From Bacteroidetes bacterium 2013_40CM_41_45 (lineage in GTDB: Bacteria > Bacteroidota > Bacteroidia > AKYH767-A > 2013-40CM-41-45), in assembly GCA_002215675.1 (NCBI GenBank), contig NGFH01000004.1:62001-126000 (forward strand): a stretch of DNA of 64,000 nt. The letters are read 5' to 3'. The stretch's first letter is position 1; the number at the start of each line of letters is the position of its first letter. Below are positions 282 through 62,677 of this stretch, one piece after another. The position numbers and the translations under genes were made by a program. The notes beneath the pieces were generated by a model. It had not been told where the DNA came from, did no database searches, and saw only the letters and a program-made list of their open reading frames with translations.

Positions 282-320
282 GTATAATAAAATTTTTGAG
301 AGCGCCCATGAACGGGACAA

Positions 321-353
321 CTCTAATCTCTAATCTCTAAACTCTAAACTCTT
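321..353. repeat. 7-base tandem tract at the feoA/feoB junction
   Basis: Read on the minus strand the tract is GAGTTTA, GAGTTTA, GAGATTA, GAGATTA, GAGTTGT: about four and a half units of 7 bases. The feoA stop codon TAG (346-344) lies inside the first unit. The same GTTTAGAG arrangement ends pheT at 60090. Function unknown. Confidence 0.8.
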
Positions 354-18838: not shown

Positions 18839-18912
18839 TTGATTTCGGATTTCGGATTTTAAATTGCGGAATCGAGTAATAATCCGCAATCCACAATTCG
18901 CAATTCGAAATT
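18839..18912. repeat. 7-base-period tract with inverted arms after pgk
   Basis: On the plus strand the units are GATTTCG, GATTTCG, GATTTTA, AATTGCG, then AATCCGC, AATCCAC, AATTCGC, AATTCGA. The two blocks are partly complementary (ATTGCGGA with TCCGCAAT), so the tract can fold back on itself. It begins just after the pgk stop and ends just before the protease start. Confidence 0.85.
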
Positions 18913-21347: not shown

Positions 21348-21382
21348 GGATAACTAATAGCATATAACATTTAACTTATTTA
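21348..21382. repeat. 7-base-period tract before ricT
   Basis: The units are GGATAAC, TAATAGC, ATATAAC, ATTTAAC and TTATTTA, ending 4 bases before the ricT ATG. The same AAC phrasing appears before asnS at 62657. Confidence 0.6.
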
Positions 21383-21385
21383 AAA

Positions 21386-22597
21386 ATGGGCTGCAGTACA
21401 GGAGCAAATACAGGTGGGCAAACCGTTGCGGGATGCCGGAGTAATGGCACTTGCGGAACAGGCGGCTGCAACAAGCTGAATGTTTTTAACTGGCTGGGGG
21501 ATATGCTGCTGCCCCCGGGACAGGCGCCTTTTGATGTAGTGGAAGTTCGCTTTAAAGGAACGCGAAAAGAATTTTATCGCAATAAGGAAAAGCTGGAATT
21601 AAAAACAGGGGATGTGGTGGCTGTAGAATCTACCGGCGGGCACGATATAGGTGTGGTTTCGCAGGTAGGAGAATTGGTACGGCTTCAGTTGAAGAGTAAA
21701 AATGTAATGGAAAATTCCGACCAGATACGGATACTCTACCGCAAGGCCAAAGAGGTTGACGTTGAAAAATGGAATTCGCTGCGGGATAAGGAAACATCTG
21801 TGCTGCATCGCACGCGGGCTATTATTGGAGACTTAAAACTTGAAATGAAACTGAGCGATGTAGAATTTCGTGGTGACGGAAAAAAAGCGACCTTTTATTA
21901 CACGGCTGAAGGGCGCGTAGATTTCAGAGAATTAATCCGCAAGCTGGCCGAAGAGTTTCATGTGCGTGTAGATATGCGTCAAATAGGGATGCGGCAGGAA
22001 GCGGGACGCCTGGGCGGCATCGGTTCATGCGGTAGGGAACTTTGTTGTTCTACATGGCTTACAGATTTTAAAACCGTCACCACCAGTGCAGCGCGGTACC
22101 AGAATCTTTCATTGAACCCTGCAAAGCTGGCGGGACAATGCGGCAAATTAAAATGTTGCTTAAACTATGAACTTGATTCATACATGGATGCATTGCGAGA
22201 CATACCTTCTTCAGACATTGTTCTGAAAACAGAAAAAGGCAGGGCGTTTCATCGCAAGACCGATATTTTTAAGCGCATGCTTTGGTATGCGCTGGAGACT
22301 GAGGATGAAAAAAGAACATCAGAGCAGGACGATGCATCGAGCTGGATTGCCTTAAGCGCAGAGAGAGCAAAAGAAATTATTGAGCTCAATAAAAAGAATC
22401 AGTTTCCTGTCGCACTGGCCGATAAAAAATACGTGGAAGAAATTGAAGAGGAACCGGAGTATGAAAATGCAGCAGGACAGGATAGCATCAGCCGGATGGA
22501 CCGCCCGAAGAAAAAGAAGAAAAAGAAAAACCGGGGCCACAGGCAGGGCAGTAACAGGAACCAGCAACAAGGTCAGCAGCAAAAGCCGCAGAGTTAA
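21386..22597 (+). CDS. ricT: PSP1/RicT family regulatory protein
   Basis: This 403-residue protein belongs to the PSP1 family (RicT/YaaT). In Bacillus, RicT forms an iron-sulfur-containing complex that modulates RNA processing. The N-terminus is Cys-rich (GCSTGANTGG..GCRSNGTCGTGGCNK). The core holds RELIRKLAEEFHVRVDMRQIG, and the paired Cys motifs GSCGRELCCSTW and GQCGKLKCCLNYE could bind a cluster. The last 40 residues are a basic Lys/Gln/Arg tail (PKKKKKKKNRGHR), longer than the core family needs. In this phylum it is usually next to gldH, as here. Confidence 0.92.
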   Translation: MGCSTGANTGGQTVAGCRSNGTCGTGGCNKLNVFNWLGDMLLPPGQAPFDVVEVRFKGTRKEFYRNKEKLELKTGDVVAVESTGGHDIGVVSQVGELVRLQLKSKNVMENSDQIRILYRKAKEVDVEKWNSLRDKETSVLHRTRAIIGDLKLEMKLSDVEFRGDGKKATFYYTAEGRVDFRELIRKLAEEFHVRVDMRQIGMRQEAGRLGGIGSCGRELCCSTWLTDFKTVTTSAARYQNLSLNPAKLAGQCGKLKCCLNYELDSYMDALRDIPSSDIVLKTEKGRAFHRKTDIFKRMLWYALETEDEKRTSEQDDASSWIALSAERAKEIIELNKKNQFPVALADKKYVEEIEEEPEYENAAGQDSISRMDRPKKKKKKKNRGHRQGSNRNQQQGQQQKPQS

Positions 22598-22601
22598 TAA
22601 T

Positions 22602-23159
22602 ATGATAATTGGAAAAATTGAAAAATTGAAAGACTGGAATATTCGAAATAAGATTTCTTCTATCATTCCATCCCTCCATTCTTCCCGATTATTTATTTAT
22701 TTTTTTTTATTGATTCTTTTTGCCTCATGCGACAAGGCGCGTGTGTATGAAAAGAATATCAAAATTCCTAAGTTTGAATGGGATATGAATAATGTCTTGA
22801 AATTTGAAGTCCCTATAACCGATACGGTTGCTTCCTACAATATGTATTTCAATATCCGCAATGCTTCGGGATATTCTTTCAGTAATTTATTTTTATTTTT
22901 TACTGTTCGTTCACCGGATGGCAGGCGCGAACGCGATACCGTTGAAATAAGACTTGCCGATGAAACAGGAAAATGGATAGGTAATGGACTGGGCGATATT
23001 TGGGACAACAAAATACTATTCAAGGAAAATTTTCGTTTTCCAGTTTCAGGCACTTATTTTTTTGAAATGGAACAAGCGATGCGGGTAAACCCCCTCTCAT
23101 ATATTATGGACGCAGGAATAAGGATTGAATACGCGGAAAAGACTCAACCTAAGGGGTGA
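22602..23159 (+). CDS. gldH: Gliding motility lipoprotein GldH
   Basis: About 185 residues from the ATG at 22602. The lipobox LILFASC is followed by DKARVYEKNIKIP. The family core includes FEVPITDTVASYNMYFNIRN, FSNLFLFFTVRSPDGRRERD, LADETGKWIGNGLGDIWDNK and FPVSGTYFFEMEQAMR. GldH is an outer-membrane lipoprotein required for gliding in flavobacteria. The first 17 codons lie inside an 8-base repeat tract (GGAAAAATTG units). The true start could therefore be a later TTG; as drawn, the segment ahead of the hydrophobic core is unusually long. Confidence 0.9.
   Translation: MIIGKIEKLKDWNIRNKISSIIPSLHSSRLFIYFFLLILFASCDKARVYEKNIKIPKFEWDMNNVLKFEVPITDTVASYNMYFNIRNASGYSFSNLFLFFTVRSPDGRRERDTVEIRLADETGKWIGNGLGDIWDNKILFKENFRFPVSGTYFFEMEQAMRVNPLSYIMDAGIRIEYAEKTQPKG
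22606..22649. repeat. 8-base-period tract overlapping the gldH start
   Basis: The units are approximately AATTGGAA, AAATTGAA, AAATTGAA, AGACTGGAA and TATTCGAA. The tract starts inside the first codons of gldH and would encode MIIGKIEKLKDWNIRNK. Confidence 0.65.
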
Positions 23160-57874: not shown

Positions 57875-57921
57875 AATTGCGAATTGCGAATTTTTGATTG
57901 TGGATTCATTAAATCAGAAAT
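57875..57921. repeat. 7-base-period tract between rlmD and rocD
   Basis: The units are AATTGCG, AATTGCG, AATTTTT, GATTGTG, GATTCAT, TAAATCA and GAAATG. It lies in the divergent promoter gap. Same style as the tract at 18839. Confidence 0.75.
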
Positions 57922-60078: not shown

Positions 60079-60095
60079 TTCTCTAAACTCTAAAC
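60079..60095. repeat. 7-base tract at the pheT stop codon
   Basis: On the minus strand GTTTAGA, GTTTAGA. The pheT stop TAG (60092-60090) lies in the first unit, exactly as the feoA stop does at 344. Confidence 0.65.
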
Positions 60096-62656: not shown

Positions 62657-62677
62657 TATAACGGATAACAGGTAACC
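62657..62677. repeat. 7-base-period tract before asnS
   Basis: Three units (TATAACG, GATAACA, GGTAACC) end 5 bases before the asnS ATG. Compare the ATAAC tract before ricT. Confidence 0.5.

Follow-up and report, generated by a model that had tools for sequence, protein, structure and literature searches.

The seven-base repeat tracts at gene boundaries in the window, a 64,000-nt stretch of the genome of Bacteroidetes bacterium 2013_40CM_41_45 (G000:C6:62001-126000), are read here, with about even confidence, as members of a class of dispersed short repeats that spreads by copying and insertion, many of them decayed. An element arm would consist of about four to five heptads, typically 32 nt, in which five tetrad anchors (e.g., AATC) are separated by 3-nt spacers. 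Arms would usually form an inverted pair around a short centre, would be copied and inserted in lineage-specific bursts, and would settle or survive where tolerated (right after stops, right before starts, and in variable coding stretches). Their behavior would resemble that of non-autonomous elements (MITEs, REPINs), and the heptad array would serve as the end that is recognised; once an arm has arrived, its units would drift and whole units would be gained or lost (25, 32, or 39 nt).

The genome is 3.38 Mb long, and the figures for it come from an 864-kb sample. An earlier note on this stretch had proposed a genome-wide periodicity scan, with a signal no stronger than in shuffled DNA as its refutation; the signal was clearly stronger, at 82 period-7 tracts versus 4 in shuffles (one, in coding sequence, was a masked N run, leaving 81 real). 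Sixty of the 82 were intergenic, though intergenic DNA makes up ~10% of the genome. Other periods were mostly near chance (6, 9, and 12 slightly over, mostly in coding sequence), and the excess at period 14 arises because of period 7. A degenerate AATC-type heptad pattern gave 63 matches and its reversed control 0. Many unit families coexist (AATCCGA/C, TATAACG, AATGACC/T, AACGTCC/T, AATTATC, AACTCTA, AATCGTA, and others). The boundary location claimed for the window held genome-wide: with edges taken from simple ORF calls, 29 of 52 testable tracts lay ≤8 nt from a gene edge (12.9 expected; the second gene-edge figure was 34 versus 12.3), and stop and start edges were used equally (26:26). A masked 5-kb segment (N; G000:C2:232501-237500), possibly rRNA, closely follows a tRNA-like sequence preceded by AAACTGT heptads.

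Within the window, pgk and an aspartyl-protease-like gene, two minus-strand genes, flank the tract at 18839-18912, an inverted pair. Its left arm (18841..18870, minus strand; GATTTCG, GATTTCG, GATTTTA, and AATTGCG, then GA), an AATC-type unit read on the minus strand, lies 10 nt from the aspartyl-protease-like gene's start codon; the centre is ATCGAGTAAT (18871..18880); and the 32-nt right arm (18881..18912, plus strand; AATCCGC, AATCCAC, AATTCGC, and AATTCGA, then AATT) ends 4 nt short of the pgk stop codon. TRF called the pair at 18841-18859 and 18881-18912. Self-complementarity, noted previously for this tract, was borne out, with 29-nt arms 79% complementary and RNA folding better than in shuffles (z = −3.1 on the minus strand and −4.0 on the plus strand). 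No intrinsic terminator (stem, then T-run) was found at 18839, and the best Rfam result was a 23-bit match to a microRNA family with a cut-off of 90, none being above the gathering score; the tract was rejected as an intrinsic terminator or known Rfam family. Arrays with other units also lie behind pgk in two further genomes (G006 and G008), a shared pattern that is only suggestive because ~11% of gaps in the window’s genome hold an array (46/409). In a family-mate (L248, genome G003), ~60-nt tandem repeats with CAGATCTTTTTCTGCGG stems immediately follow the pgk stop.

Three more heptad arrays were found in the window: a single plus-strand AACTCTA/AATCTCT array of 4.9 units (319..352), 55 nt upstream of a plus-strand ORF and of the same family as G000:C2:412267; a short minus-strand AATTGCG array of 2.6 units (57875..57892) in a divergent gap, with degenerate heptads continuing to about 57910; and a plus-strand CTCTAAA array of two units (2.1; 60081..60095), called by TRF and under the lag-scan threshold, which spans the end of a minus-strand gene. 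With the 18839 pair, these account for the heptads listed earlier that were recovered (TRF); the other two listed sites, both on the plus strand, were not significant individually. These two (21348..21375, before a start codon, and 62657..62676, ATAACGGATAACAGGTAAC) match with one mismatch the TAACNN-type heptad of the TATAACG family, common in the genome, and are best read as probable decayed members of it (5 matches at ≤2 mismatches versus 1.6 expected). An 8-base version reported near 22606 is real but a single instance (22597..22647, plus strand; AATTGAAA; TRF and lag scan). The lag scan of the window at period 7 returned 3 segments with a score of ≥12 versus 0.0 in shuffles and 4 with a score of ≥10 versus 0.2, and most other periods were near chance.

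The unit recurs far outside this genome. Among the matches listed, the exact 24-mer of three AATCCGA units plus AAT occurs in about ten or more phyla, under record names that include Acidobacteria, Verrucomicrobia, Bacteroidetes, Planctomycetes, Deltaproteobacteria, Chloroflexi, Armatimonadetes, Cloacimonadota, Calditrichaeota, and several candidate-phylum lineages. These cross-phylum loci were selected by the AATCCGA pattern, and reversed-pattern controls gave 0 in all 24 whole genomes searched via them. Occurrence of the strict pattern is uneven: within the window’s own phylum, 6 of 395 genomes have it. A burst is seen in the Acidobacteriota MAG SZAS-13 (G041; figures from a 628-kb sample), with 1446 matches versus 12, 3, and 4 in three genus-mates. 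Periods 9 (61 tracts) and 8 (23 tracts) are likewise in excess in the SZAS-13 sample, unlike in the window’s genome. Nineteen IMG/VR stretches (L189-L207), which may be viral genomes or host DNA, hold the exact 24-mer array; a BLAST search of phage and plasmid records with a 32-nt array returned no match under a low-complexity filter that makes the result uninformative.

The arrays have a preferred length of 31-33 nt (~4.5 units) and locked ends. Outside SZAS-13, 113 of 311 arrays were 31-33 nt long, and 84 of 127 AATCCGA runs began in two of the seven phases and 83 of the 127 ended after AAT or AATC; the length peak of non-AATCCG families was identical (31-33 nt). SZAS-13 arms trimmed to AATC ends were exactly 32 nt (five AATC anchors) in 50 of 76 cases, with 13 at 39 nt and 11 at 25 nt, i.e., one unit more or less than 32 nt. 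Most neighbouring arms are inverted relative to each other, the A-rich strand of the unit being directed outward to the right (−+ versus +− pairs, 42:2 in SZAS-13 and 8:0 in the window’s genome; weak in the mixed cross-phylum set, 39:23). Pair members complement each other better than re-paired arms do (0.93 versus 0.71, 0.72 versus 0.59, and 0.81 versus 0.74), and the two arms of one pair may come from different families. In SZAS-13, the centre measures 49-57 nt in 14 of 27 AATCCG pairs, and 11 of the 27 centres resemble another (shuffles, 0); a dispersed element of about 115 bp therefore accounts for many of the copies in that genome. Block dispersal is seen only in SZAS-13, no shared centres being found in the window’s genome.

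Armless orthologous sites are present in the SZAS-13 genus. At L211:5610-5925 in SZAS-13, arms lie immediately after a stop and a short way upstream of the following start, and two congeners (G065 and G067) have armless gaps homologous to the DNA that these arms enclose, a terminator-like stem included; to judge from this homology, the arms were added around native DNA and not inserted as one block. A separate array of ~21- to 23-nt units (CATATGCGAGTGCTCGCAAAG; L218:12080-12300) shares a gap with a heptad arm in the same genome.

Transposition-like copying, which we infer as the route of spread with the heptad array as what the machinery would recognise, best explains why units are reused and length is fixed, and why there are bursts, similar centres, and armless orthologs. 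Dispersal does not by itself explain the native centres, mixed-family pairs, missing target duplications (around single arms, k = 3-9, at chance), or choice of heptads, and against it stands the observation that the same site in congeners may bear different families. REPINs and MITEs are non-autonomous elements, short inverted-pair repeats between genes that burst to hundreds of copies; the present repeats differ in their heptad-array arms, lack of RAYT correlation, lack of target duplication, and native centre at one tested site. The MITE test of a shared, non-native centre found sharing in 11/27 pairs in SZAS-13, a native centre at L211:5610-5925, and none shared in the window’s genome. Candidate mobilisers were rejected, as presence and copy number did not track with arrays: RAYT, a Y1 transposase, numbered 10 in SZAS-13, 10-13 in its array-poor congeners, and none in the array-rich G053 and G059; reverse transcriptases did not follow array-rich versus array-poor genomes; and Cas1 was absent from G000, G002, G041, G054, and G059, an absence on which CRISPR-type 32-nt integration was also rejected.

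Local mutation offers a different and rather doubtful account, in which polymerase slippage in 7-nt steps, with hairpin-templated repair (quasi-palindrome correction) copying arm to arm, would build the arrays site by site. A bacterial heptamer excess has been ascribed to the polymerase footprint (as cited in PMC4692102), and the one-unit differences in array length (25, 32, and 39 nt), the better complementarity of paired than of other arms, and the native centre at L211:5610-5925 all accord with this account. So does a change of unit, and even of period (7, 8, 9), at a single gene boundary whose arms stay complementary: the four congeners each have a different tandem element at L213:14731 (periods 9, 8, and 7 and one degenerate), with complementary arms in three. 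At the coding linker L211:1555, SZAS-13, G065, and G067 carry different heptad units at the same place, G066 being without a clear array. At L213:9744, one array family is nested within another; the orthologs of these two L213 sites (L285, L297, L298, L286, and L292) are gene boundaries whose differing inverted tandem elements have a period of 7, 8, or 9. Local mutation sits poorly with identical units at hundreds of sites across many phyla, with the species burst and shared centres in SZAS-13, with the consistent polarity, and with a length peak and locked ends in place of a decaying length spectrum. Simple slippage fails: under it, lengths should decay, ends should be free, and units should come from local sequence, and the data show the opposite. 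The common mechanism suggested earlier for the window’s tracts thus keeps its support as a common cause, but slippage alone, one of the options then named, misfits the recurrence of units across genome and phyla, the 31-33-nt peak, the locked ends, the inverse pairs, and the single-species burst. A recognition code or the spacing of regulators, also named then, is conceivable, but tracts lie within T9SS-domain coding sequence as well and are as frequent after stops as before starts (26:26). Under dispersal, slippage and hairpin-templated repair may well remodel arrays afterwards, which would cover the 25/32/39-nt steps, complementary arms, and site-level turnover.

Selected function, as tandem regulator-binding sites in DNA or RNA or as RNA stem-loops at transcript ends or starts, is an improbable source of the class. 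It finds support in a tRNA/SRP-RNA-like spacer, where the arm pair is retained in three congeneric species with the heptad register and GATT/AATC anchors mostly kept while the 3-nt spacers vary, and in the gene-edge position and the folding of the 18839 pair. The four- or five-unit elements of Geobacter are annotated as putative global-regulator sites (PMC2700814), and a role as translational sites has been suggested for TAACTGA arrays (PMC4679880). Many unit families per genome, arrays inside T9SS-tail coding sequence, equal use of stop and start edges, the lack of a terminator at 18839, and the lack of arrays at most congeneric sites count against it. A coding pair gave no stem on RNA folding (z = +1.5) and, with paired arms sometimes of different families, hairpin function was rejected as a general rule. 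Single sites may have a regulatory or RNA role, as the folding of the 18839 pair suggests, but such a role is unlikely as the general cause. Chance, low complexity, or assembly artefact, to which short tracts such as 60081 and 62657 might be ascribed when taken by themselves, is already refuted by the genome-wide counts (82 versus 4), the empty reversed-pattern controls, and the occurrence of heptad arrays in complete chromosomes (e.g., CP087563 and CP011210).

Heptad repeats have been described singly in Nostoc, Xanthomonas, Geobacter, and Beggiatoaceae (PMC4692102, PMC2700814, PMC4476775, PMC4679880). In Xanthomonas and Nostoc, GGGAATC and GGGGA(C/T)T units, mostly about four, lie between genes near ORFs, frequently as opposite-strand pairs, with the G-rich strand downstream of ORFs on the coding strand (PMC4692102). 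The window’s genome shares with them a tandem 7-nt unit with intergenic excess, about four units, and opposite-strand pairs; the Xanthomonas unit moreover reads AATC plus GGG, and left arms here have the same G-rich-strand placement. The units here (e.g., AATCCGA and TATAACG) differ in having no GGG, so that no quadruplex is expected, and here there are many families per genome, T9SS-tail copies, and a documented burst with armless orthologous sites. Multicopy elements of Geobacter metallireducens consist of four or five tandem hepta- or octanucleotides in opposite-strand pairs with variable spacing, also within genes (PMC2700814); unit number (four to five, of 7 or 8 nt), pairing, and presence within genes agree with ours, whereas the units differ, the elements are annotated there as putative regulator sites, and no cross-phylum link is drawn (PMC2700814). 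In the P6b stem of the Nostoc trnL intron, degenerate heptads TDNGATT and NNTGAGT form a stem, either class occurring at the same place (PMC4476775); degenerate, stem-forming heptads with a GATT or GAGT anchor are common to both cases, but there they are confined to one intron stem. TAACTGA repeats form intergenic heptad arrays in Beggiatoaceae, cyanobacteria, and Bacteroidetes, with patchy occurrence across phyla as here, but consist of one unit, repeated directly, that mostly precedes start codons in a single orientation (PMC4679880); the units here are others, and stops and starts are equal (26:26).

The window’s tracts match this described but unexplained kind of heptad repeat (about four units, opposite-strand pairs, gene edges, and GATT/AATC in several). 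What appears new is the common frame: one unit in many phyla, fixed length and locked ends, polarity, a burst with armless sites, and T9SS tails. Priority is not certain, subscription literature being outside the search; unit strings used as a literature query returned no title or abstract on bacterial intergenic repeats. The heptanucleotide excess of bacteria is an old observation with no agreed cause; given a fixed length and locked ends, together with polarity, bursts, and armless orthologs, a vague slippage account gives way to testable predictions, and SZAS-13 and its three congeners offer a natural experiment ready for use. It is unlikely, yet conceivable, that the heptad repeats of many phyla are one mobile class whose unit is the ~32-nt array, with a putative enzyme that would read spacing over sequence and write fixed-polarity arms on both sides of a short DNA segment, also within genes. 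Should the arrays prove mobile, small elements that remodel gene borders, and even the tails of secreted proteins, would form a widespread class that still lacks a name.

Such tails were found in the window’s genome, where all seven array-bearing coding sequences chosen for a domain test (7/7) end in a T9SS sorting domain, a domain type that accords with a probable place in the Bacteroidota. In translation, the arrays read as peptides such as KSEIRNPKSEI; the domains keep their usual 70-78 residues against a 75-position profile, with no net length change, and the arrays are written over, or take the place of, variable parts of secreted-protein tails. The T9SS type A arrays lie at G000:C2:394287-394397, C2:268054-268163, C2:258474-258580, C1:157534, C2:295517, C2:220821, and C1:153910, and flank a conserved IEIYDxLGQKVF-like stretch on one or both sides.
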